A DNA stretch of 64,000 nt from Dyella jiangningensis. GTDB taxonomy: Bacteria > Pseudomonadota > Gammaproteobacteria > Xanthomonadales > Rhodanobacteraceae. The notes beneath the pieces were generated by a model, which was given only the letters and a program-made list of their open reading frames with translations, had not been told where the DNA came from and ran no database searches. The stretch is from the NCBI RefSeq assembly GCF_003264855.1, contig NZ_NFZS01000001.1:434001-498000 (forward strand). Direction: 5' to 3'. The position numbers and the translations under genes are program-made. Positions 1,613-14,316 of the stretch are shown here, in pieces (within the stretch, counting starts at the first letter, position 1; every line of letters begins with the position of its first letter).

Positions 1613-3556
1613 CTAGTAGTTGTAGCCCGGACCCAGCAGATGGAAATTCACGATGAACGCGATCGCCCCCAGGCAGGCCATCAGCAACACGACGTCACTG
1701 AGCCGCCGCCACCACGCGCCCGGTGTGCGCCAGGCACGCCAGGTCTCGATAGCGACCGGAATCGTGCCCAGCACGGCGAGCACGCCGACGATCTGCAACA
1801 GCAGCAGGCGCATGTCCAGATGCGGCGCGCCCAGCCGCGGCAGCATCAGCGCCCAGCCACCGGCAAACGCCAGATGGAAGATGGGTACGATGCGGCTGAG
1901 GCGATACCAGCGTTCGTCGCCTTCCGGCAGCGCGATCCCGATGTTCCGCCGACGCAGCAGCGCCACCACCGGCCACGACAAGGCGACAAGCGCGAAGATC
2001 GCAAGCAAGGTCATCAGCACGCCAGCCACGCGGCCTGGAGCCCACCCGCTCGCAGGCAGGAACACCTGCGCCGGCGACAGCGTATCGATCGACCACATGC
2101 GCACCTTGCCGTCGCGCACGAGTGCGGCCAGCTGGTGCCCGCTGGCATCGTCCACCCAGACATACGGCTTCACTTCACGCCAGGATTCCGCGCCGAGCTG
2201 CGGAACGCGCAGCGTGCCGTCGGCTGCCACGCCGACCCATAGCGGCTGGAACAGGTCGCGCAGGGCGAGCACATTGCTTTGCGACGTGATGCTTGAGGCA
2301 TATCGACCTGCGATCTGGCCGGCATGCTGTTTCGCGGTCGGCAAGGTCGGCGATTTCAGCTGCGGCAGCGGCGGGAAATAGCGCGCATCGAAAGCATCGG
2401 CCAATGCTCGTGGCCACCCGCCATCCGGGTGGCCGTCCATGGCGATGAAGATGCCCGCGTGCTGTTCTGGAAACAGCGCGACGAGACTATGGAAGTCCGC
2501 GATGCCGCCGGCATGACCAAGGATGACCTGGCCGTCGCGATCCATGCGCGCGAACCCCAGCGCCATGCCTGGCAAACCCGGGATGGCGGCCCGCAGGTAG
2601 TCGTGCATCGCCTTCACGCTGGCCTGTTCCAGGAGCTGCGCCTCCCCGGCGCGGCCGAACTGCAGGTGCGCGATCATGAAGCGCGCCATGTCATCGCCGC
2701 TGATGGACAGCCCCTCCGCTGGGGCCGCGGTTCGCCGAGCGAACGACTGCGGTGACGCTTCGGCGCTTCGATAGCCAGGCGGGGCATCGGCTTGCACATC
2801 GGCGGGCAGCGGTTGCCGGAAGCTGGCGTGCTGCATGCCGAGCGGCATGAAGATGTGCCGCTCGACATACGTGTCGAACGGCATGCCGGAGACGCGCTGC
2901 ACGATGTAGCCCGCCAGTGCGGCGCCGTAAGCGGAGTGCGCGGGCACGTCGCCTGCGGGATAGATTCGCGCCGGTATCCATCGCTTCAGCCACGCCTCGT
3001 TGCTCATCAGCGTGGCCGCATCGGCGGCGTAGCGATCGCGGAGCACGTCCTCGAACCCCGCCGTGTGCGTCATCAGATCGCGCAGGGTCACGGCCTTGCC
3101 GTCGCGCGGAGGGATCTGGAAGTCGAGGTAGCGGTTGATGTCCGCATCGAGTTCGAGCTTGTGCTGCTCCGCAAGCTGCATCACCGCCGTCCAGGTGAAC
3201 AGCTCCGACACCGATGCTGCCCGGAACATCGTGCTCGCCGGATCCACCGGTTTCCTGGCCGCCACGTTCGCGTAACCGTAGCCCTTCGATGCGACGACGT
3301 TGCCGTCCTTCACCACCACGGCGACGGCGCCCGCGATGCCGCCGTTCGACATGGCCCGGGCCATCTGTTCGTCGAGCCATGGCCCGACGTCGCCGCCGGT
3401 GAGCTCGTGCGCACCGATCTGCGTGATGGTGGCGGCCTTGGGTTCAGGCAGCGGGGTGATCTGTATCTGCGCGTAGGAGTGCGATGCGGACATTGCCAGT
3501 GCGGCCGCCAGCACAAGTCGAGCGCTGCGGGCGATGGCAGGCGCGATGGCTTTCAC
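1613..3556 (-). CDS. Serine hydrolase-fold (class C beta-lactamase/CubicO) membrane protein, catalytic motifs degraded
   Basis: 647 residues from a GTG start at 3556, chosen because AGGGAG lies 8 bases upstream and the signal peptide (residues 1-29, ending SHSYA) then begins cleanly; an in-frame ATG at 3574 is the alternative. Residues about 50-400 are a beta-lactamase/CubicO domain and about 515-640 hold four membrane segments, so the domain should be tethered in the periplasm. In the family the catalytic Ser-x-x-Lys is needed; here it reads S115-V-S-E118, with Glu for Lys. The second motif, normally Tyr-x-Asn, reads H207-S-A209. The third motif is kept (H348-A-G350). Inference: a pseudoenzyme or a protein with a changed activity. 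The fold assignment is firm; the function is unknown. Confidence 0.85.
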   Translation of the reverse strand: MKAIAPAIARSARLVLAAALAMSASHSYAQIQITPLPEPKAATITQIGAHELTGGDVGPWLDEQMARAMSNGGIAGAVAVVVKDGNVVASKGYGYANVAARKPVDPASTMFRAASVSELFTWTAVMQLAEQHKLELDADINRYLDFQIPPRDGKAVTLRDLMTHTAGFEDVLRDRYAADAATLMSNEAWLKRWIPARIYPAGDVPAHSAYGAALAGYIVQRVSGMPFDTYVERHIFMPLGMQHASFRQPLPADVQADAPPGYRSAEASPQSFARRTAAPAEGLSISGDDMARFMIAHLQFGRAGEAQLLEQASVKAMHDYLRAAIPGLPGMALGFARMDRDGQVILGHAGGIADFHSLVALFPEQHAGIFIAMDGHPDGGWPRALADAFDARYFPPLPQLKSPTLPTAKQHAGQIAGRYASSITSQSNVLALRDLFQPLWVGVAADGTLRVPQLGAESWREVKPYVWVDDASGHQLAALVRDGKVRMWSIDTLSPAQVFLPASGWAPGRVAGVLMTLLAIFALVALSWPVVALLRRRNIGIALPEGDERWYRLSRIVPIFHLAFAGGWALMLPRLGAPHLDMRLLLLQIVGVLAVLGTIPVAIETWRAWRTPGAWWRRLSDVVLLMACLGAIAFIVNFHLLGPGYNY

Positions 3557-3656
3557 GTGGGACTCCCTCGGCATTCCGTTCGATCGGGCGAGCGCCGAGT
3601 ATGCCGCGTGGGATGTCGCTTTCGCGTTGGCGCGCCGCCAACCCGTCAGCGGTTTT

Positions 3657-4832
3657 TCAGCTGCGGCGCATCCTGGTCATCAAATCCGCCAACTCGCGCA
3701 CGGCGGCTTCGGAGTCCGCGCGGCGCGGCGTGACGTCTGCATTGTTGAAATTGCCGGCATCGCCGATCACCTGCACCATGATGCCGTCGCTGCGCGGCAC
3801 CACGCTGATGTCCTTCATGCGCAGGCCATAGGTCACTTCCGGCTGCGGCACCAGTCGCGCCGTCTGTCCGCGCACGGGAATCACCGATTCGTCGCTGAAC
3901 AATGCACGCGCGCCATAACCGGTGGCATTGACGATCGTGCGCTCGGGCAGCTTCTGCAATTCGTCGGGATGGGTGAACTCGCGGATCTCGATCTTGCCGC
4001 CGGCGGCGAGGTATTCGGACATCAGCAGGTTGGCATAGCTGCTGATGTTGAACATCAACGTGGTGTAGCGGCGCACGTACGGTTCGGGAAAGGGATGCGT
4101 GCCGGGTGGCAGTTCGACGGAACGTGGCGTGAGATCGCGTACGCGGTCGGCAAACTCGCCGTACTCGGGTTCATCGTCCACTTCGCCGTGGAACGAACCG
4201 AAGGGCGCGTCGGCGAGCGAATAGCCGTCGATCCATTCTATCGGCCTGCCGGGCAGCCCCAGCAGGCTCTGGTAACGCGCGTAGGAGATGCGCGCCATCA
4301 TTTCCCAGCGATCCGCCAGACCGGGCGCGTGCGCGGCGTCGCAGATGCGCGAGTCGGGCGTCCACAGGCCCGAGGCACGCATGGAAAACACATCCGGCGG
4401 CAGCGCCTTGGCATAGATGCGCACGGCCAGGCCGGACTGTTGAGCCAGCAGCGCCGTGGTCAGGCCGATCGCGCCGCAGCCGATCACGCCGAGTTCGCGC
4501 GCGCCGGTGCTTTGCACCATCTGCAGCGCCAGCGTGCCCGAGCCCCACGATAGCGACCAGCCGCTGCCGCCGTGGCCGTAGTTGTGCACGATGGTCTTGC
4601 TGCCGAGCTTCTGCATCTCGATGCGCGGGCCCGCCGCGCGAAAGGGGCGCGTGCACACGTATACGCCGGTGATGCGGTCGACGCTGGCGCGGATGGGAGC
4701 GAGTCCGGCGGCATCGGGCGGCAGGTGCGCGCCTGCCGCCTTCATCGGTTGCTGTGCACAGCCCGCGAGCCCGGCGGTCGAGGCCACGGCGAGCGTCGCG
4801 CCGGCCTGGCGCAGGAATTGGCGGCGTTCCAT
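3657..4832 (-). CDS. Exported FAD-dependent D-amino-acid oxidase-like protein, circularly permuted
   Basis: 391 residues. The start at 4832 is preceded by GGGAGAGA and opens with MERRQFLRQAG, a twin-arginine signal, followed by LAGC at residues 22-25 (lipobox-like). FAD-dependent D-amino-acid oxidases normally run Rossmann GxGxxG first, then RGQ, then an FRPxR stretch and GHGG near the C-terminus. Here the order is TRPFR (61-65), NYGHGGSGWSLSWGS (84-98), then the dinucleotide fold GVIGCGAIG (115-123), then VRGQ, and the protein ends soon after. All segments are present once in one uninterrupted frame, so the arrangement looks like a circular permutation, not a truncation. The substrate is unknown; the active-site tyrosine of DAAO is not obvious by eye. 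A small membrane protein gene lies 82 bp upstream. Confidence 0.85.
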   Translation of the reverse strand: MERRQFLRQAGATLAVASTAGLAGCAQQPMKAAGAHLPPDAAGLAPIRASVDRITGVYVCTRPFRAAGPRIEMQKLGSKTIVHNYGHGGSGWSLSWGSGTLALQMVQSTGARELGVIGCGAIGLTTALLAQQSGLAVRIYAKALPPDVFSMRASGLWTPDSRICDAAHAPGLADRWEMMARISYARYQSLLGLPGRPIEWIDGYSLADAPFGSFHGEVDDEPEYGEFADRVRDLTPRSVELPPGTHPFPEPYVRRYTTLMFNISSYANLLMSEYLAAGGKIEIREFTHPDELQKLPERTIVNATGYGARALFSDESVIPVRGQTARLVPQPEVTYGLRMKDISVVPRSDGIMVQVIGDAGNFNNADVTPRRADSEAAVRELADLMTRMRRS

Positions 4833-4914: not shown

Positions 4915-5133
4915 TCAGCCTTTCTTGAGGAAACCGCCGATCGCGATGACCGCACCGATGATGATGCCCGCCACGCCTATCCATTCCGGCACGGCCTTGT
5001 CGTGCGTGGCGGTGACCTTGGCCGAGCCGATCTGCACCAGCGTATCGGTGGTCTGGTAGCTGCCGTGGCCGAACACGACCCAGGCGCCGGCGCCCAGCAG
5101 GATGATGCCGATGATGATCAACACTGCACGCAT
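4915..5133 (-). CDS. Small two-helix membrane protein (DUF3185-like)
   Basis: 72 residues with a hydrophobic helix at 3-21 (IIIGIILLGAGAWVVFG), a short polar loop of about 25 residues, and a second helix at 50-68 (IGVAGIIIGAVIAIGGF), ending KKG. Length and layout resemble the DUF3185 group of small inner-membrane proteins, but that link is by eye only. It lies 82 bp upstream of the flavoprotein gene in the same direction and could share its transcript. No function can be given. Confidence 0.7.
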   Translation of the reverse strand: MRAVLIIIGIILLGAGAWVVFGHGSYQTTDTLVQIGSAKVTATHDKAVPEWIGVAGIIIGAVIAIGGFLKKG

Positions 5134-5228: not shown

Positions 5229-5245
5229 GGGAGAAAGGATTTCGT

Positions 5246-6868
5246 TCAGCCGACGCGTGCGAACAGCGCGCCGTGGCCGGGCAAGCTAAGTACATCATTG
5301 GCCAGCGTGCCCTGGGCCAGGCCGTGGCCTTCGATCGCGGTGGTGGCGCCTATCCCAGGCAGCGGCAGGCTGACGTCCTGCGTGGACAGGTTGAATGCGA
5401 CCAGCACGGTGTCGCCGCCATGCTGGCGCGTGAAGGCCAGCACCGGCTCGGGCGTGTCGATGAAGCGGATGTTGCCCCAGCGCAACGCCGGCTGCGCCTT
5501 GCGCCAGGCCATGAAGGTGCGGAAGCCGTTGAGCGCGGAGTCGTCGGCGGTTTCCTGCAGGCTCACGGCGAGCGCGCGGTGTTCCGCCGGTACCGGCAGC
5601 CACGGTTCGCCCACGCTGAAACCGGCGTTGATGCCGCCATTCCACGGCATCGGCGTGCGGCATCCGTCGCGGCCCTTGAAGGTCGGCCAGAAGGTAATGC
5701 CGTAGGGATCCTGCAGCGCTTCGAACGGTACGTCCGCTTCGGTGAGGCCGAGTTCTTCTCCCTGATACACGCACACCGAGCCGCGCAGCGAGCAGACCAT
5801 GGCGCTCAGCAGGTTGGCCAGGCGCGGCGAGGCGTCACCGTTGCCCCAGCGCGTGAGCACGCGCGAGACGTCGTGGTTGGAAATGGCCCAGCAGGGCCAG
5901 CCTTCCAGCATCTGCGCTTCGAGGTTCTGCACCGTGCCGCGGATATAGGCTGCGCTGAAATCGTCGGTGAGCAGCTCGAAGCTGTAACCCATGTGCAGGC
6001 GACGGCCGCTGGTGTATTCGGCGGTGGTGGCGAGCGAATCCTCCGAGGAGATTTCGCCGATCGCCGCCACGTCGCGGTACTGGTCCATCAACGCGCGCAG
6101 GTCCTCCAGAAACGCGATGTTCTCGGGCCGCGTGTTGTTGTAGTAGTGGTACTGGAACGCGTACGGGTTGTCCGGGCTGAAACCGCGGCCCACGCGTTTG
6201 TCTTCCGGCTTGGGCGGGTTGTCGCGCAGCTGCTGGTCGTGGAAGCAGAAGTTGATCGCGTCCAGGCGCAGGCCGTCCACGCCCTTGTCCAGCCAGAACT
6301 TCACCGCGTCGAGCACCGCGCGGCGCACGTCGGGGTTATGGAAGTTGAGGTCCGGCTGCGAGGTCAGGAAGTTGTGCAGGTAGTACTGCCCGCGGCGCGG
6401 CTCCCACTGCCACGCGCAGCCGCCGAACAGCGACAGCCAGTTGTTGGGTGGCGTGCCGTCTTCGCGCGCATCGGCCCACACGTACCAGTCCGCCTTGGCG
6501 TTCGTGCGGCTCTGGCGGCTTTCCTTGAACCAGGCATGCTCGGTCGAGGTATGGCTGAGCACCTGGTCGATCATCACCTTGATGCCGAGCGCATGCGCCT
6601 TGGCGAGCAGGCGATCGAAGTCATCGTTGTTGCCGAACAGCGGATCGACTTCGCGGTAGTCGGCGATGTCGTAGCCGAAATCGGCCATCGGCGAGCGGAA
6701 GAACGGGGCGATCCAGATCGCGTCCACACCCAGGCTCGCGATGTAGTCGAGCTTGGCAATGATGCCCGGCAGGTCGCCGACGCCGTCGCCATTGGTATCC
6801 ATGAAGCTGCGTGGATAGATCTGGTAGGTGACGGCTCCGCGCCACCACGGTGCTTCACTCATTCGCAT
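5246..6868 (-). CDS. GH13 alpha-glucosidase (XgtA-like), cytoplasmic
   Basis: 540 residues, no signal peptide. Hydrolyses, and in Xanthomonas XgtA-type relatives also transfers, alpha-glucosyl residues of malto-oligosaccharides. Catalytic set of GH13: nucleophile D203 in GLRLDAINF, acid/base E272 in AIGEISS, transition-state pair H332-D333 in SNHDVSR; QIYPRSF and NGDGVGDL lie at the N-terminus. Start at 6868 (MRMSEAPWW); the second ATG at 6862 is nearly as good. It is transcribed away from the TonB receptor gene across a shared 494-bp regulatory region that holds two LacI-type operators and a Clp/CRP-like site, so it should be induced together with uptake of maltodextrin. It would act last, on sugars brought in by the porter at 16532-18022. 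Confidence 0.92.
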   Translation of the reverse strand: MRMSEAPWWRGAVTYQIYPRSFMDTNGDGVGDLPGIIAKLDYIASLGVDAIWIAPFFRSPMADFGYDIADYREVDPLFGNNDDFDRLLAKAHALGIKVMIDQVLSHTSTEHAWFKESRQSRTNAKADWYVWADAREDGTPPNNWLSLFGGCAWQWEPRRGQYYLHNFLTSQPDLNFHNPDVRRAVLDAVKFWLDKGVDGLRLDAINFCFHDQQLRDNPPKPEDKRVGRGFSPDNPYAFQYHYYNNTRPENIAFLEDLRALMDQYRDVAAIGEISSEDSLATTAEYTSGRRLHMGYSFELLTDDFSAAYIRGTVQNLEAQMLEGWPCWAISNHDVSRVLTRWGNGDASPRLANLLSAMVCSLRGSVCVYQGEELGLTEADVPFEALQDPYGITFWPTFKGRDGCRTPMPWNGGINAGFSVGEPWLPVPAEHRALAVSLQETADDSALNGFRTFMAWRKAQPALRWGNIRFIDTPEPVLAFTRQHGGDTVLVAFNLSTQDVSLPLPGIGATTAIEGHGLAQGTLANDVLSLPGHGALFARVG

Positions 6869-6971
6869 GTCCCGTTCCCGCCCAATGCATTGCGCATGTC
6901 GCGAAAGACACGTGGCCTGAGCGAAGCGCGGGGGGCAGCTTAAAGGCAGAGTCGCGATGCAACGCCGTGAC

Positions 6972-6985
6972 TGCATACGTATTCA
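6972..6985. promoter_or_regulatory. LacI-type operator, copy 1
   Basis: TGCATACGTATTCA, a near-palindrome centred on ATACGTAT, about 104 bp upstream of the alpha-glucosidase start. It is the exact reverse complement of the site at 7189-7202. Size and symmetry fit LacI-family operators. The obvious candidate regulator is the LacI protein encoded at 18190-19224. Confidence 0.75.
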
Positions 6986-7011
6986 AAAAAACGCGATATT
7001 GCGACGCAACA

Positions 7012-7027
7012 AGTGATGTGGATCACC
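7012..7027. promoter_or_regulatory. Clp/CRP-like binding site
   Basis: AGTGATGTGGATCACC: GTGA-N6-TCAC, the core and spacing of CRP/Clp sites (consensus TGTGA-N6-TCACA). It lies between the two LacI-type operators, consistent with catabolite or c-di-GMP-linked Clp control of the sugar locus; this is inference. Confidence 0.55.
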
Positions 7028-7188
7028 CAAAAGAGTCGCGCGGCGCGAGGCGTCCCGATCTGCCGGAAGCCGCTACATGCAAGGCGAAAATGCCGATGGA
7101 GGCAAGCCGCGCGAGCGTTCCGGTCGCACATGCCGCGCGACAGCCGACCATTAGAATTTTGTCAAAGGTGCACAAAAAAACCGGGCCA

Positions 7189-7202
7189 TGAATACGTATG
7201 CA
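7189..7202. promoter_or_regulatory. LacI-type operator, copy 2
   Basis: TGAATACGTATGCA, the exact reverse complement of copy 1, 217 bp centre to centre from it and about 161 bp upstream of the receptor start. Two identical sites around a divergent promoter region would allow repression of both sides, perhaps with DNA looping. Confidence 0.75.
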
Positions 7203-7362
7203 TAGGCCTGTTTCCCTTTTTTCGCAGCCCTACCATGGCCGCCACGCGACGGGGCCCTCCGAGTAGTCGGCATGCACTGGCGCGTAGCCCGCGGCGGTCT
7301 GTGGGGACTGTCGCGGCAACTACAAAACCAAATGACGTGCATACCCGTGGGAGGGGAAGACG

Positions 7363-10233
7363 GTGATTCTGAAACGTAATGTGCTGGCCTTGGCGCTGGC
7401 TTCCGGCCTCTGTTTCACTGCCGGCATTCATGCGGCACCGATCGATACGGACGCAAAGACCGATGGCACCGCCAACGGCAATGCCGCGCCGGCTGACCAG
7501 TCGACGCAGACTGCCACCGCGCAGCCCGGCGACAAGACCAAGCAGGAAGAGCAGCTGGCCAAGAGCCTGTCGACCATCACCGTGACTGGCTACAACCAGG
7601 GCATGGAGAAGGCGATCGACTACCAGCGCTACTCCGACACCATCACCAACGTCATCACCGCGGCCGACATCGGTGGTCTTCCCGACCAGTCGATCGCCGA
7701 CGCATTGACCCGCCTGCCGGGCGTGTCCGCCGAGCGCATCGCCGGCCAGGCATCGCAGATCAACATCCGCGGCCTCTCGGGCAACTTCATCCAGACCACG
7801 CTCAACGGTCGCGAGCAGCCCTCCACCAGCGGCAGCAACTACATCCAGTTCGACCAGTACCCGTCCGAGCTGATCAACATGGCGACGGTGTACAAGTCCT
7901 CGCAGTCGTCGCTGATCACCGGCGGCGTCGGCGGCACCATCGCGATGGAGACGGCCAACCCGCTCAATGCGCCGAAGGAGCAGAACCTCAACATCGACGC
8001 GCGCGGCAGCTACAACAGCCAGGCGAACGATGTGGCGGGCGCCAACTCCACCGGCTATCGCCTGAGCGCCGCGTGGCAGGGCAAGTTCCTCGACAACACC
8101 CTGGGCGTGGGCCTGGGCGTGGCGCAGATGTACCAGCCGCACGTCGCCGAGCAGTTCGTGGGCGAAGCCTCCGACGGCAATCTCGTCACGCTGCCGAGCG
8201 GCCAGCAGGCTTACCTGACCCAGGGCCTGCAGGTGCAGCAGAACGGCGGCAACGAGCGTCGCACCGGCGAGATGGCCACCGTGGTGTGGAAGGCCACCGA
8301 CGAACTGCAGTTCGGCGCCGACGCGTTCTACTCGAAGTTCAAGGACACCTCGTTCGGCTACGGTTTCCGTTCGCAGAACATGTACGGCAACCAGAACCTG
8401 GTTTCCAACGCCGTGCTCGGTCCGTACGGCACCATGACGGGCGGCACGATCACCAGCCCGGGCGCCAACAACTTCTCCAACGAGACCACCGCCGACAACT
8501 ACACGACGAACACCAGCGTGTTCTCCGGTGGCCTCAACATGAAGTGGAACCACGGCCCGTGGCATGTCGACACCGACCTGTCGCTGTCGCGCGCCACCAG
8601 CAACGAGATCAACGTGGACACCACGGCTGATCCGTACAACAACCTGGGCACGCCCAATGCGACGCTGATGGCGCAGTCGACCACCTACCAGCTCAAGGGG
8701 CGCGAGGTGGGTACGGTGTCGTTCGCCAATCCGGGCATCTACACCAACCTCAACGACATGGGCCTGTCCCGTTACGGCGTGTACCCCTACATCTACCACG
8801 ACAAGATGAAGGCGTTCCGCACCGACGTGAAGTACGACTTGCCGAACAACGCGTGGTTCTCGGCGGTCGAAGCCGGCGTGTACCTGAACAACCACACGTA
8901 CAATGCCGATCGCGAAGTGTTTGTCTACGGCAACGAGTGGCAGGGTCCGGCGCTGACCATTCCGAGTAGCGCCGCCAGCGTGCGTTGCTGGAAGGGCAAG
9001 TTCTCCGGCATGCCGTGCTTCCTGCAGCTGGATGGCCCTGCCATTCTCGCCGCGCACGGTATCGTCGCCAACCCGGTGAAGAACATCACCGACCAGAGCT
9101 GGTCGATGATCCAGAGCGGATCGGTGGATGAGCAGACCCGTGACCTGTACTTCCAGGGCGACATCGATGCGCAGGACGTGTTCGGCCACGAACTGACGGG
9201 CAACATCGGCATCCGCTACTCGCACCAGAAGCAGTACAGCAATGGCCTGCAGCAGGTGGGTAATGGCGCCGGTGTCCCGATCACCGACGGCAACGGCAAC
9301 ACCAGCACCGACTACGCGCCGCTCAACGTCGGCAAGACCTATGGCGACTGGCTGCCGTCGGTGAACCTGGTCTACCACCTCACCGAAGACGACCAGATGC
9401 GCTTCTCGGCCGCCAAGGTGCTGTCGCGTCCGCCGATCAACAAGATGCTGGCGGGCTCGGGTTCGTGGGTGTCCGGAACCGGAGCGCTCGCTCAGTACAA
9501 CGTGTGGGGCGGCACCAGCCCGCTGCTTGATCCGCTGCGTGCGTTCCAGTGGGATCTCGGCTACGAGCACTACTTCGACGATTCGTCGGGCGTGATCAGC
9601 GGCGGTGTGTTCTACAAGCACATCGACTCGTTCGTGCAGGACGTCACCTACAATAACTATGACTTCGCGGCCGCCGGTATTCCCGTGCCGACCAACCCGA
9701 GCACGGGCCAGCCCTACCTCAACGGCCAGTACCAGACCTCGTACAACGCCACCGGCGGCAGCGTGAAGGGCCTGGAGATGTCGCTGTCGAAGAACCACAT
9801 CTTCCCGGGCATCTGGGAAGGTCTGGGCGTGCAGGCGAACTTCGCGCTGACCACCAGCAACGTGCGCAACCCGAACAACCTGGGCGGCGCGGAAGCGAAC
9901 CTCAGCCTGCCGGGCCTGTCCAAGCGCGTCGCGAGTGCCGCGGTGTTCTACGACTATGGTCCGTTCTCGGCCCGCGTGTCCGGCAACTACCGTTCGAAGT
10001 TCGCCTCCGATACGCAGATGTCGGTGAACAACCAGATGGTCACCTTCGCTGCGGAAACGGTGTACGACTTCCAGGCGTCGTACGAGATCTCCAAGCAGTG
10101 GCGCGCGGTGATGCAGGTGCTGAACCTCACCAACCAGCCGACCCGTACCTACTTCGGCTCCGACCCGTCGCAGACCGGTACCATCCAGTACTTCGGCCGC
10201 ACGACCTACCTCGGCGTCGAGTTCAAGCTGTAA
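7363..10233 (+). CDS. TonB-dependent outer-membrane receptor for alpha-glucans/maltodextrins
   Basis: 956 residues from a GTG at 7363 with GAGGGGAAGA directly upstream. A signal peptide (1-25, ending GIHAA) is followed by a TonB-box-like STITVTGYNQ and the plug segment DIGGLPDQSIADALTRLPGVSAERI, typical of the TonB-Xanth-Caul family of carbohydrate receptors; the C-terminus YLGVEFKL ends in an aromatic-poor beta-strand. There is no N-terminal signalling (STN) domain, so control is expected through the operators upstream and not through an ECF factor. Context gives the substrate: three exported alpha-glucan hydrolases and a sugar porter follow, and a GH13 alpha-glucosidase diverges. A strong hairpin ends the transcript before the hydrolase operon. 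Confidence 0.93.
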   Translation: MILKRNVLALALASGLCFTAGIHAAPIDTDAKTDGTANGNAAPADQSTQTATAQPGDKTKQEEQLAKSLSTITVTGYNQGMEKAIDYQRYSDTITNVITAADIGGLPDQSIADALTRLPGVSAERIAGQASQINIRGLSGNFIQTTLNGREQPSTSGSNYIQFDQYPSELINMATVYKSSQSSLITGGVGGTIAMETANPLNAPKEQNLNIDARGSYNSQANDVAGANSTGYRLSAAWQGKFLDNTLGVGLGVAQMYQPHVAEQFVGEASDGNLVTLPSGQQAYLTQGLQVQQNGGNERRTGEMATVVWKATDELQFGADAFYSKFKDTSFGYGFRSQNMYGNQNLVSNAVLGPYGTMTGGTITSPGANNFSNETTADNYTTNTSVFSGGLNMKWNHGPWHVDTDLSLSRATSNEINVDTTADPYNNLGTPNATLMAQSTTYQLKGREVGTVSFANPGIYTNLNDMGLSRYGVYPYIYHDKMKAFRTDVKYDLPNNAWFSAVEAGVYLNNHTYNADREVFVYGNEWQGPALTIPSSAASVRCWKGKFSGMPCFLQLDGPAILAAHGIVANPVKNITDQSWSMIQSGSVDEQTRDLYFQGDIDAQDVFGHELTGNIGIRYSHQKQYSNGLQQVGNGAGVPITDGNGNTSTDYAPLNVGKTYGDWLPSVNLVYHLTEDDQMRFSAAKVLSRPPINKMLAGSGSWVSGTGALAQYNVWGGTSPLLDPLRAFQWDLGYEHYFDDSSGVISGGVFYKHIDSFVQDVTYNNYDFAAAGIPVPTNPSTGQPYLNGQYQTSYNATGGSVKGLEMSLSKNHIFPGIWEGLGVQANFALTTSNVRNPNNLGGAEANLSLPGLSKRVASAAVFYDYGPFSARVSGNYRSKFASDTQMSVNNQMVTFAAETVYDFQASYEISKQWRAVMQVLNLTNQPTRTYFGSDPSQTGTIQYFGRTTYLGVEFKL

Positions 10234-10239
10234 GTCACG

Positions 10240-10279
10240 ATCGCGCCGGCACTCCGCAAGGAGTGCCGGCGCGATGCTT
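10240..10279 (+). terminator. Strong terminator after the TonB receptor
   Basis: Perfect 16-bp stem with a GCAA tetraloop at 10256-10259, followed by GCTTT. It separates the receptor transcript from the hydrolase operon, or lets only part of the transcription through. Confidence 0.85.
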
Positions 10280-10282
10280 TCC

Positions 10283-10306
10283 GGAGCCACGCGTCCGCGT
10301 GGCTCC
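10283..10306. repeat. Second perfect hairpin (10-bp stem)
   Basis: GGAGCCACGC-GTCC-GCGTGGCTCC, seven bases after the terminator stem. No T-run follows. The GGAGCCACGC arm ending in CCCACA resembles another REP-type palindrome; it could protect the 3' end of the receptor mRNA or be a repeat copy. Confidence 0.6.
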
Positions 10307-10411
10307 CACACACCGCGAGGCCCGGCGTAGCGGTCACCGGTCCGAAGCGAAGTCTGCGTTCCGGTGTACTGTTGCCCGTCGAAGGCCAGCGGCCTTTGCA
10401 TGGAGAACGGC

Positions 10412-11983
10412 ATGTCGCGGAACCGCCTGTTGAAGTCCCTCGCTCTGTCCACCGCCCTAGCGCTCGGCGCGGGCTTCCTTCCGGGTGTGCACGCGGCGAC
10501 GACCGTCCCGCCGGCCACCGACACGCTATCGTCCGGCGTGTATTACGAAATCTTCGTGCGTGCCTGGTACGACACCAACGGCGACGGCATCGGCGATCTC
10601 AACGGCGTCACCGCCAAGCTCGATTACCTGAAATCGCTGGGCATCAGCGGCATCTGGCTGATGCCGATCAACAACTCGCCCAGCTACCACGGCTACGACA
10701 TCACCGATTACTACGGCATCAATCCGCAGTACGGCTCGGTGGCCGATCTCCAGCACCTGGTGGACGAAGCGCACAAGCGCGGCATCGCGGTGACCATGGA
10801 CATGGTGATCAATCACAGCAGCAACGAGCACCCCTGGTTCGTGGCTGCGCAGAAGGCCAACGATTTGCATCGCAACTGGTACACCTGGGCCACCAAGCGG
10901 CCCAATCTCGATGCGCTGAGCGCGACCGATACGCCAATCTGGCATGCGGGCGACGACGGTTGGTACATCGGCGTGTTCGGCGGCCACATGCCCGACTTCA
11001 ACTACGACAACCCGGCCGTGCGCGCCGAGATGATCAAGGTCGGCCAGTACTGGCTGGGCAAGGGTGTCGATGGCTTCCGCCTCGACGCGGCCAAGCACAT
11101 CTACGTTGATTTCAAGTCGGACGAGCACAGCCTTGAGGCCGTACAGAAGAACGCCGCGTGGTGGACGGAGTACCACGACGCGCTCGCCAAGGTGAACCCC
11201 AAGGTGACCCTGGTTGGCGAAGTCAGCGCGAAGTCGCCCAAGGAGCTGGCGCCGTATCTCAAGCCGCTGGGTTCGATCTTCGACTTCCCACTGGCCGAAC
11301 AGCTGATTCTCAGCGCCAAGAGCGAGAACGCTACGAAGCTTGAATCGCTGCTCAAGGCCACCTACGACGCGTACAAGCTCGCTGGGGACGCGCCGTTCAT
11401 CGATTCCACGTTCCTGTCCAACCACGACCAGGAACGCGTGATGAGCCGCCTCGACGGCAACGTCGAGCACATGCGCGTGGCGGCGGCGATGCTGCTGACG
11501 CTGCCCGGCCGTCCGTACATCTACTACGGCGAAGAGCTGGGCATGGAGGGCAAGAAGCCCGATCCGAACCTGCGCGAGCCGATGCGCTGGACGCGCGAAG
11601 CGGGCCCCGGTGAGTCGCGCTGGAAACCGTCCAGCGTGAACCAGGGCCAAGTCGTCTCCGTGCAGGCCGAAGAGGACGATCCGAATTCGCTGCTGCATAC
11701 CTACCGCACCCTGATCGGCTGGCGCGCACACAACAGCGCCCTGCGCGACGGCAAGCTGGAAGCGGTGGTCACCGGCAACCCGCACCTGTTCGCCTACTGG
11801 CGCAACGATGGCAAGCAGCGCCTGCTGGTGGTGCACAACCTTTCCGGCAAGAGCGTGATGTGGAAGCCTAAGGGCGATCTGCTGCCCAAGGAGGCCACCG
11901 TGCTGCTCACCACCCAGACGCAAGCGTCCCTCAAGGACGGCCATCTGAACATGCCTGCCTACAGCACCGTGGTGCTCCGCTGA
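10412..11983 (+). CDS. Exported GH13 alpha-amylase-type enzyme
   Basis: 523 residues. The start at 10412 (MSRNRLLKSL) has GGAG 7 bases upstream and opens a signal peptide ending GVHAA near residue 29. GH13 catalytic residues are all present: nucleophile D225 in GFRLDAAKH, acid/base E270 in LVGEVS, H338-D339 in SNHDQER; the Ca-binding/region I stretch MDMVINHSS is at 130-137. It should act in the periplasm on maltodextrins that entered through the TonB receptor. It is the first gene of an operon whose next three genes each overlap the one before by 1-4 bases, so translation is coupled. Confidence 0.92.
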   Translation: MSRNRLLKSLALSTALALGAGFLPGVHAATTVPPATDTLSSGVYYEIFVRAWYDTNGDGIGDLNGVTAKLDYLKSLGISGIWLMPINNSPSYHGYDITDYYGINPQYGSVADLQHLVDEAHKRGIAVTMDMVINHSSNEHPWFVAAQKANDLHRNWYTWATKRPNLDALSATDTPIWHAGDDGWYIGVFGGHMPDFNYDNPAVRAEMIKVGQYWLGKGVDGFRLDAAKHIYVDFKSDEHSLEAVQKNAAWWTEYHDALAKVNPKVTLVGEVSAKSPKELAPYLKPLGSIFDFPLAEQLILSAKSENATKLESLLKATYDAYKLAGDAPFIDSTFLSNHDQERVMSRLDGNVEHMRVAAAMLLTLPGRPYIYYGEELGMEGKKPDPNLREPMRWTREAGPGESRWKPSSVNQGQVVSVQAEEDDPNSLLHTYRTLIGWRAHNSALRDGKLEAVVTGNPHLFAYWRNDGKQRLLVVHNLSGKSVMWKPKGDLLPKEATVLLTTQTQASLKDGHLNMPAYSTVVLR

Positions 11984-14316
11984 TGCGGGCGCGCCTGCTG
12001 GCACTGGCGCTGCTGTGCGCGACCAGTGCCATTCCTGCGGCGTTGGCCGCACACGTCGATGCCAGCGCCGACCGCATGGAGCTGGCGGTGCCCAAGGGCA
12101 AGCTGGAACTGCGCCTGCTGGCCCCCGGCATCGTGCAGCTGCGCATCGATGGCACGCGTGAACCGGCTACGCCGGTGATCGATCCGGAAGCCAGCTTCGA
12201 TCCGGTCGACGTGAAGCGCGAGCAACAAGGCAGCGAGCAGGTGATGCGCTCGCAGCAGATGACCCTGCGCTGGAACCCGCAGCGCGCCGAGTTGCGCGTG
12301 GAGTCACCGGATGGCCGCCTGTTGATAAGCGCCAATGTCGCGCACGCGTTCGATGGTGGCTGGTCCATACGCCACGCCAAGGGCGATCCGCAGTACGGCA
12401 TCGGTGGGCTCAATGCGTTCGACCCGAAGGCCGGAGATCTGCTGCGCCAGGGCAAGCAGCTGGCCACGGCCGGCAGCCAGGGCCACACCGGCGCGCCCTT
12501 CGTCTGGAGCACGGCCGGTTATGGCGTGCTGGCCGACGCCGAGCTCGCCCAATTCGACCTGACGGCGACCGACATCACCGTACACGCCAAACAGCAACCG
12601 GTGCGCACGATCTACCTGTTCGCCGGGCAGCCAAGCGCGTTGTTCGCGCAGCTGCGCCTGGTCAGCGGCGCCGCACCGATGTTCCCGAAGTGGGCCATGG
12701 GCTTCACCAACAGCCAGTGGGGCATCGACCAGAAGGAAGCGCAGGCGCTGGTGGAGACCTACCGCGCCAAGCACATCCCCATCGACAACTTCACCTTCGA
12801 CTTCGACTGGAAGGCGTGGGGCGAGGACATGGGCGAGTTCCGCTGGAACACCGACACGTTCCCGGAGGGTCCTGACGGCAAGCTCAAGCAGTGGATGGAC
12901 GCGCGCGGCATGCACATGACCGGCATCATGAAGCCTCGCCTGCATGTGGACACGGTCGAAGGCCGCGAGGCCACGCAGCATGGTTACTGGCTGGCGCAGT
13001 CGAAGGTCGCGCCCGATTACTTTTCGCACAAGCCGGTGCGCGACGTGGACTTCGACAAGCCCGAAGTGCGCGCCTGGTTCTTCAACGGCGCGCTCAAGCA
13101 GTCCTTCGACACCGGCATCGTGGGCTGGTGGAACGACGAAGCGGACGACAGCGGCGTCGACACGCAGTTTCTCAACATGCAGCGCGCCATGTACGACGGC
13201 CAGCGCGCGCACAGCGATCAGCGCGTGTGGTCGATCAACCGCAACTTCTACCTGGGTTCGCAGCGCTACGCCTATGGCGTGTGGTCGGGCGACATCCAGA
13301 GCGGCTTCGCCAGCATGGCCAACCAGCGCCAGCGCATGCTCACCGCGTTCAATGTCGGTGCGATGCACTGGGGCATGGACGGTGGCGGCTTCAAGGCGCC
13401 GCGTCCCAGCGACGAGAACTATGCGCGCTGGATAGAGTTCAGCGCGTTCACGCCGGTGTTCCGCGTGCATGGGGACTTCGGGCAGAAACGCCAGCCCTGG
13501 GTCTACGGCCCCATCGCGGAGAAGGCCGCGACGGATGCCATCCGGCTGCGCTATTCGCTCATTCCCTATATCTACGGCTACGAGTACCAGAACCACGTAA
13601 CCGGCGTGGGCCTGGTGCGGCCGCTGCCGTTCGCCTATCCCGACGATCCGGCGCAGTGCGACCGCATCGATGCGTGGATGTTCGGCGAATACCTGCTGGT
13701 GTCGCCGGTGGTGGAGCAGGGACAGACGTCCAAACGGCTGAAGCTGCCGAAGGGTCGCTGGATCGACTGGTTCGACGGCAAGGCCTACGAAGGCGGACGC
13801 GAGGTCACGCTCGCCCTGGATGCCAAGGGCTGGGGTGACATCCCGCTGTTCATCCGCGAAGGCGCCATCATTCCTCAGCAGCCGGTGATGGACTATGTGG
13901 GGCAGCATCCGGTGACTTCCCTGGACGTGCAGGTGTTTCCGGCCGACAGCCAAACCCGTTTCGACATTTACGACGATGATGGCGAAAGCTACGCCTACGA
14001 GAAGGGTGCGTACTTCGTGCAGCCGCTGCTCGTGCAACGCGAGGGCGCTCGCGTGAGCGTCCGCACGGAAGCGCCCAAAGGCAGCTTCAAGCCGGCATTG
14101 CATGACTACGTGCTCGCCGTGCATGGTCCCGTGGCAAACTCGGTGCACCATGGCGACCAGCCGTTGCCGGTGTTCGATAGCGTTGATGCGTTGCGCAACG
14201 CCACGACGGAAGGCTGGGCGCGCGGCAAGGATCGTTTTGGCGAGGTGACCTACGTGAAGCTCGAAGCAGGCAAGGTGCACGATATCCAGCTTGATACTGT
14301 GGCGGTGCAGCAATGA
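11983..14316 (+). CDS. Exported GH31 alpha-glucosidase family enzyme
   Basis: 777 residues, start overlapping the previous stop (TGATG). Signal peptide 1-22 (ending AALA). GH31 layout: N-terminal beta domain, barrel from about 235 (FPKWAMGFTNSQWG), likely nucleophile D385 in GWWNDEADDSG, likely acid/base D437 in VWSGD, RVHGDFGQ further on, and C-terminal beta domains with YDDDGESY. The family includes alpha-glucosidases, alpha-xylosidases and transglucosylases; the locus favours alpha-glucosidase or a transglycosylase acting on branched or 1,6-linked oligosaccharides. Expected in the periplasm. Confidence 0.92.
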   Translation: MRARLLALALLCATSAIPAALAAHVDASADRMELAVPKGKLELRLLAPGIVQLRIDGTREPATPVIDPEASFDPVDVKREQQGSEQVMRSQQMTLRWNPQRAELRVESPDGRLLISANVAHAFDGGWSIRHAKGDPQYGIGGLNAFDPKAGDLLRQGKQLATAGSQGHTGAPFVWSTAGYGVLADAELAQFDLTATDITVHAKQQPVRTIYLFAGQPSALFAQLRLVSGAAPMFPKWAMGFTNSQWGIDQKEAQALVETYRAKHIPIDNFTFDFDWKAWGEDMGEFRWNTDTFPEGPDGKLKQWMDARGMHMTGIMKPRLHVDTVEGREATQHGYWLAQSKVAPDYFSHKPVRDVDFDKPEVRAWFFNGALKQSFDTGIVGWWNDEADDSGVDTQFLNMQRAMYDGQRAHSDQRVWSINRNFYLGSQRYAYGVWSGDIQSGFASMANQRQRMLTAFNVGAMHWGMDGGGFKAPRPSDENYARWIEFSAFTPVFRVHGDFGQKRQPWVYGPIAEKAATDAIRLRYSLIPYIYGYEYQNHVTGVGLVRPLPFAYPDDPAQCDRIDAWMFGEYLLVSPVVEQGQTSKRLKLPKGRWIDWFDGKAYEGGREVTLALDAKGWGDIPLFIREGAIIPQQPVMDYVGQHPVTSLDVQVFPADSQTRFDIYDDDGESYAYEKGAYFVQPLLVQREGARVSVRTEAPKGSFKPALHDYVLAVHGPVANSVHHGDQPLPVFDSVDALRNATTEGWARGKDRFGEVTYVKLEAGKVHDIQLDTVAVQQ

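Follow-up and report, generated by a model that had tools for sequence, protein, structure and literature searches.

D-Amino acid oxidase (DAAO) is a textbook flavoenzyme with uses in cephalosporin chemistry and biosensing, and in animals both it and D-aspartate oxidase (DASPO) are peroxisomal. We have analyzed a gene in a stretch of 64,000 nucleotides from Dyella jiangningensis (the window) that encodes a DAAO-like flavoprotein with its parts in circularly permuted order. The account of sequence motifs in a survey of DAAOs (PMC9844085) holds that the flavin adenine dinucleotide (FAD) fingerprint GxGxxG must sit at the N-terminus and that bacterial enzymes additionally have GxRPxR and YGHGGxG; the fingerprint and the Arg-Pro pair stay conserved, but the carboxylate tyrosine is not universal. 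Among the described relatives, Rubrobacter xylanophilus DAAO (RxDAAO, P0290) resembles the window protein in its DAO fold and its GxGxxG, RGQ, RPxR and GHGG motifs, and can be aligned with it end to end once the sequence is rotated. Unlike the window protein, it has the normal order with GxGxxG at residues 19-24, keeps Tyr 225 and shows no signal peptide. The normal order also distinguishes mammalian DAAO and DASPO (1an9, 6rkf), as well as the glycine oxidase ThiO and sarcosine oxidase group, to which similarity is lower; ThiO identity was rejected (TIGR02352, 22.7 bits against a cut-off of 250.8). Among exported or membrane-bound DAO enzymes, Proteus L-amino acid deaminase 5fjm and the Bordetella conserved exported protein 3dme, called exported in the title of its own entry, share the DAO fold in normal order too. 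No description of a permuted DAAO was found in the literature searched, which covered few subscription papers and no preprints.

The gene and the parts of its product are listed below; groups i and ii are two subgroups of permuted proteins, group i containing the window protein, and pLDDT is the predicted local distance difference test score of the structural model.

3657..4832, minus strand: coding sequence of the permuted DAAO-like flavoprotein, 391 amino acids plus stop, ATG start; Pfam DAO PF01266 at residues 116-385 (E = 1.7e-21)
4758..4832, minus strand: predicted signal of twin-arginine type that includes a lipobox-like LAGC (residues 1-25), from sequence; TIGR01409 E = 0.046, below cut-off
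4686..4757, minus strand: variable, low-confidence tether (residues 26-49); mean pLDDT 48 (residues 21-30), 51 (31-40) and 88 (41-50)
4509..4685, minus strand: moved module (residues 50-108), corresponding by sequence matches to the end of the normal DAAO chain (human residues ~270-329); strands 54-65, 70-76 and 79-85 and helix 91-107 in the model
4638..4652, minus strand: TRPFR (61-65), R62 being the Arg of the DAAO Arg-Pro pair, which by analogy would bind the carboxylate; R62 present in every row of group i (67), group ii (19) and the normal set (29)
4560..4586, minus strand: HNYGHGGSG (83-91), including NYGHGGSG (84-91), with conserved glycines
3672..4508, minus strand: Rossmann part that binds FAD, and substrate domain (residues 109-387), corresponding to residues 1-269 of normal DAAO
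4464..4481, minus strand: GCGAIG (118-123), the FAD fingerprint GxGxxG; G118, G120 and G123 invariant
3864..3875, minus strand: VRGQ (320-323), from sequence

The sequence GGGAGAGAG lies immediately 5' of the ATG. The match to the DAO superfamily model PF01266 scores 77.6 bits, above the curated cut-off of 27.9. A sequence-only reading had put TRPFR, NYGHGGSG, GCGAIG and a later VRGQ at these residues and claimed that each part occurs once in one frame; both statements hold, since a single intact frame of 391 codons carries RPxR and GHGG, then GxGxxG, then RGQ, in single copies. The observation of a shifted motif order is thus confirmed, and a circularly permuted DAAO-fold clade can be regarded as established. 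We consider it probable that the window protein is a predicted Tat (twin-arginine translocation)-exported member of this clade that oxidises a D-amino acid in the periplasm.

Several comparisons converge on a permutation. A phmmer search of Protein Data Bank (PDB) sequences gave DAAO as the best match, in two out-of-order stretches on the Rasamsonia enzyme 7ct4: query residues 59-108 matched chain residues 325-374, and 112-327 matched 24-242. With a profile built from 74 family members, positions 49-105 matched human DAAO 270-329 and positions 106-389 matched 7ct4 18-305. Every rotation of the window protein from residue 41 on was then aligned with RxDAAO, with end gaps free. The best rotation started at residue 106 and scored 244, against 177 for the natural order and 168 for the median rotation; 100 shuffled sequences scored at most 29. 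A second normal DAAO (P0241) gave 178 at start residue 107 and 99 in natural order. The same all-rotation test was applied to 35 permuted proteins sampled from the 239 others listed; some rotation exceeded the natural order in all 35, with the best start 2-12 residues ahead of GxGxxG. For 15 normal-order proteins sampled from 120, every best start was no more than 16 residues from the protein's own ends.

The predicted structure of the window protein is confident (pLDDT 91.9). A sequential structural aligner placed model residues 112-387 on DAAO 1-269 and then stopped, as a permutation predicts; a normal-order control aligned nearly end to end. These structural comparisons cover the listed structural relatives among the matches returned. 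The model has the same secondary-structure elements as RxDAAO, except for the signal helix and two short helices, and the last four elements, three strands and one helix, are moved to the front. Thus, of the proposed structural check, the confidence of the model and the order of its elements came out as a permutation predicts; packing of the N-terminal GHGG module on the FAD site appears likely from pLDDT, the predicted template modelling score, homology and conserved residues. Entries 5fjm and 3dme align with nearly the full length of the normal-order control, beginning at its Rossmann end; the 5fjm match starts at residue 53 of that entry. Both are unpermuted, so that, if they are exported, export does not need the permutation.

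The permuted order is common to the homologues. Two protein lists were compiled, each comprising the best 120 of ~7000-8000 matches; the first was seeded by the window protein, which it includes, and the second covers the distant subgroup, group ii. GHGG stands ahead of GxGxxG in 119 of the 120 proteins of the first list (one is unclear) and in all 120 of the second, for a total of 239/240, and this order holds down to about 26-31% identity. A list of 120 proteins seeded with an alphaproteobacterial normal DAAO contained 113 Rossmann-first proteins, seven unclear ones and no permuted one. In a genome scan, the best 80 loci were kept, and all of them are co-linear with the query over a stretch that begins no later than residue 64 and ends no earlier than residue 369. 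Loci named among these 80 come from Dyella, Rhodanobacter, Xanthomonas, Pseudomonas, Paraburkholderia, Sphingobium, Caulobacter, Bradyrhizobium, Acetobacteraceae, Acidobacteria and Opitutaceae, so the search for the same motif order, suggested for Xanthomonadales, revealed a family extending far beyond them. At least 15 of 299 sampled genomes of Pseudomonadota (the window's own included) carry a permuted gene, as do at least 14 of 289 of Alphaproteobacteria (including the very divergent locus L145) and at least 1 of 274 of the window's class, the one being its own genome; these three counts are minima, since in many genomes no more than 6 candidates were scored. Within the window's family 18 of 97 genomes have one, as do 7 of 7 in its genus, its own included. 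The rotated window sequence found no full-length co-linear (normal-order) match in the same 299 Pseudomonadota genomes; it recovered the same 15 permuted loci, each in two pieces, and two short weak matches.

These results bear directly on whether the order is a local rearrangement, misassembly or frame artefact. Homologues in the usual order with only this copy rearranged, the alternative raised beforehand, were not seen. The frame is intact, 239/240 listed proteins and 80/80 kept loci share the order, and we found nothing in favour of an artefact, which was rejected as having a negligible chance. Where source databases give members a name, it is "FAD-dependent oxidoreductase", "D-amino-acid oxidase" or similar, so that the permutation is hidden in the annotation. 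One member, 53% identical to the window protein, is in a record titled as a Klebsiella pneumoniae metagenome-assembled genome (L037); the title may reflect a binning error.

In a tree of 55 permuted sequences, rotated by script, and 29 normal ones, one branch divides the two orders with 100/100 support and is present in 100% of 200 bootstrap trees. The dividing branch is long, and two rows (L145 and L002) have very long ends. This single branch bears out the proposal of a separate subfamily and is consistent with a permutation that arose in one event.

Secretion, the other half of the earlier proposal, is predicted from motif and hydrophobicity. The signal region contains RRQFLR at residues 3-8 and LAGC at 22-25, a Tat lipoprotein pattern (twin-arginine signal, then lipobox Cys) that is conserved in close relatives; the NCBIfam Tat model TIGR01409 scores it at 14.1 bits, below its cut-off of 16.7. 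The Tat/lipoprotein-like motif of the earlier proposal is present, and export itself is a prediction. By our own rule, which asks for a twin arginine and then a hydrophobic stretch in the N-terminal 45 residues, 116/120 proteins of the first list and 120/120 of the second qualify (236/240 permuted proteins), compared with 5/120 of the normal list. The four misses in the first list are three short forms without the N-terminus and one 481-residue form with RR further in. Start codons of the 80 genome loci were chosen towards RR, and the export counts do not draw on them. A lipobox-like Cys follows the signal in 113/120 proteins of the first list and, by a strict rule that partly undercounts group ii because LPGC falls outside the pattern, in 8/120 of the second. 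The divergent protein of L145 has a Sec-like, signal-like start without twin arginine; it is encoded on the minus strand at ~787-2061, in an alphaproteobacterial genome of 1.9 Mb. For a group ii-like protein (L018:1438-2523) the chosen start shows no signal peptide, and the protein may be a permuted form that stays in the cytoplasm, or the start may be wrong. A list of proteins released from Asaia (PMC12502724) includes a DAAO with no secretion predicted.

Residues were counted in 115 distinct rows of a rotated alignment (67 from group i, 19 from group ii and 29 from normal DAAOs). G86, G88, G89 and G91 are invariant in 115/115 rows, and H87 in all but one. G118, G120, G123, G322, R62, P63, R65, H83, N84, Y85 and GHGG are common to the three sets, with at most one or two exceptions, among normal rows; R62, P63 and R65 are invariant in all 67 group i and 19 group ii rows. 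The YGHGGxG motif of DAAOs is present in the window protein, and GxRPxR is present from RPxR on, its leading G being C in 66/67 group i rows. GxGxxG does not stand at the N-terminus, as GCGAIG 118-123 lies behind GHGG.

The main difference between the subgroups is at the position of RxDAAO Y225, before the xxPR strand, which we take to be the numbered active-site Tyr of other DAAOs. Tyr is found here in 26/29 normal and 19/19 group ii rows; group i has Ser in 40 of its 67 rows, among them the window protein, Asn in 11 and Tyr in three. R162 (66/67) and Q354 (65/67) are fixed in group i and found in none of the 19 group ii or 29 normal rows. N262 occurs in 67/67 group i rows and in 3/29 normal ones, and W92 and S93 are likewise in 67/67 group i rows and rare in the other sets. 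R162, N262, Q354, W92 and S93 are candidates for an altered substrate. Given the replacement of Tyr and the fixed R162, N262 and Q354, the substrate of group i probably differs from the usual neutral D-amino acids. The same features, together with a varied gene context, would also fit a permuted DAAO-fold enzyme whose substrate is not a free D-amino acid but, for example, an N-substituted amino acid, an opine-like compound or a peptidoglycan fragment; we think this unlikely. Tyr loss in most group i rows could also mark an exported protein that keeps the fold and has lost catalysis. Against this, none of the 86 distinct permuted rows departs from the glycines that bind FAD, the Arg-Pro pair or GHGG, and the existence of two subgroups and of a cytochrome neighbour in some loci suggests redox use; loss of catalysis is accordingly very improbable.

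That neighbour is a small CxxCH cytochrome c gene with a signal-peptide-like start, found by tblastn directly 3' of the flavoprotein in 7 of the 79 loci whose downstream sequence reaches 600 bp or more (Pfam was run on those of L083, L090 and L091). Its start lies between -4 and +10 bp from the flavoprotein stop codon (L083, L085, L090, L091, L092, L094 and L096), a spacing that suggests translational coupling. All seven loci are alphaproteobacterial (Acetobacter, Komagataeibacter, Sphingomonas and an alphaproteobacterium), and the three in the tree (L083, L090 and L096) form one clade with 100/99 support. The spacing and the clade favour an alternative in which the members work primarily as dehydrogenases, with cytochrome c or the quinone pool as electron acceptor, and not as oxidases that produce H2O2. 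In 72/79 loci tblastn found no such neighbour, although free cytochrome c could still serve; we see here a serious possibility, somewhat short of even. A different CxxCH protein is encoded 160 bp downstream in L057. In L090 the cytochrome c gene is followed by a D-aminoacylase-like amidohydrolase (5231-6886; 1m7j, E = 7.4e-58; 3gip, N-acyl-D-glutamate deacylase, E = 6.1e-57), for which tblastn found no counterpart in the other 79 of 80 loci. The next gene in L090 belongs to the tannase/feruloyl-esterase family (PF07519).

In the window itself the flavoprotein gene has two neighbours on the same strand.

1613..3574, minus strand: class-C-beta-lactamase/DD-peptidase-like serine hydrolase, 653 amino acids, a possible partner; PF00144 E = 5.6e-56; 82 bp downstream of the flavoprotein gene
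4915..5133, minus strand: small predicted membrane open reading frame (ORF), 72 amino acids, upstream of the flavoprotein gene; PF00335 E = 8.1e-4, 19.6 bits against a cut-off of 32.1

The serine hydrolase is presumed from its N-terminus to be exported; the models for AmpH, D-aminopeptidase and beta-lactamase all fell below cut-off among the best 25 listed. It adjoins the flavoprotein in 5 of 6 other loci of the genus, close copies also do so in L022-L025, more distant PF00144-like matches lie 1-2.7 kb off in L026, L070 and L081, and one adjoins the flavoprotein in L082. AmpC/AmpH-like relatives range from DD-peptidases and D-peptidases to esterases and beta-lactamases. Serine hydrolases of PF00144 type are common, which weakens the link, and it could be due to chance. 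Beyond these small sets, no common gene partner was found across the 80 loci. Taken together, the cytochrome c, D-aminoacylase and serine hydrolase neighbours would fit a release of D-amino acids outside the cytoplasm, but such neighbours are not general.

The probable reading, oxidation of a D-amino acid by a permuted DAAO relative in the periplasm, would involve the following steps. The RPxR/GHGG module, C-terminal in normal DAAO, comes first in the chain, and a short linker connects it to the FAD-binding part with GxGxxG. As the signal is of Tat type, the chain would fold and take up FAD in the cytoplasm and then cross the membrane folded by the Tat route, with a predicted lipid anchor in lineages with a lipobox, the window's included. 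R62 would bind the carboxylate of the substrate, and FAD would receive the alpha-hydrogen as hydride, as established for DAAO. Reduced FAD would then be reoxidised by O2 or, judging by gene order, in some lineages by the cytochrome c encoded directly downstream. Of the two main subgroups, group ii would use the DAAO active-site Tyr that it keeps, and group i a site in which Tyr is mostly replaced and R162, N262 and Q354 are fixed.

Several points weigh against this reading. We know of no member of the permuted family with a measured activity, and the profile search of the PDB listed only normal-order DAAO/DASPO chains and more distant flavoproteins. The active-site Tyr is Ser in the window protein and kept in only 3/67 group i rows. 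Packing of the GHGG module on the FAD site is a deduction from model confidence, homology and conserved residues. The curated Tat model falls below its cut-off, and the export counts depend on our own rule. The normal-order set comes from one search with one seed protein (28 of the 29 tree rows), plus one locus. The neighbourhood varies (cytochrome c 7/79, all alphaproteobacterial; D-aminoacylase 1/80), so that the argument about the substrate is thin for the window's own lineage, and the serine hydrolase link is mostly confined to one genus.

A broader proposal may be put forward tentatively, and we regard it as rather doubtful: one ancient permutation of a cytoplasmic DAAO would have given rise to a new class of periplasmic flavoenzymes, exported by the Tat route and often anchored by a lipid, in Pseudomonadota, Acidobacteria and Opitutaceae; some would be D-amino-acid:cytochrome c dehydrogenases, and group i would act on a D-substrate used by no characterised DAAO. 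The occurrence of a natural permutation throughout a broad clade shows the fold to be tolerant of new termini, and the clade is a ready scaffold for re-ordered DAAOs. It may also indicate that D-amino acids are oxidised by an exported route that has been overlooked. The N-terminal position of GxGxxG, which the survey in its motif account takes as a DAAO requirement (PMC9844085), is contradicted by the clade if its members are DAAOs.

Some further features of the loci were seen. The window's serine hydrolase has, by eye, an apparent C-terminal membrane region, and a small ORF similar to that at 4915-5133 is also upstream in L022 and L024. A hydantoinase/oxoprolinase gene adjoins the permuted flavoprotein in L071 and L072 (Pfam on L071 only). 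Positions 5246-14316 of the window contain an alpha-amylase family gene (PF00128), a TonB receptor and, by eye, more glycosidase-like ORFs, and are probably a locus for starch or maltose use.
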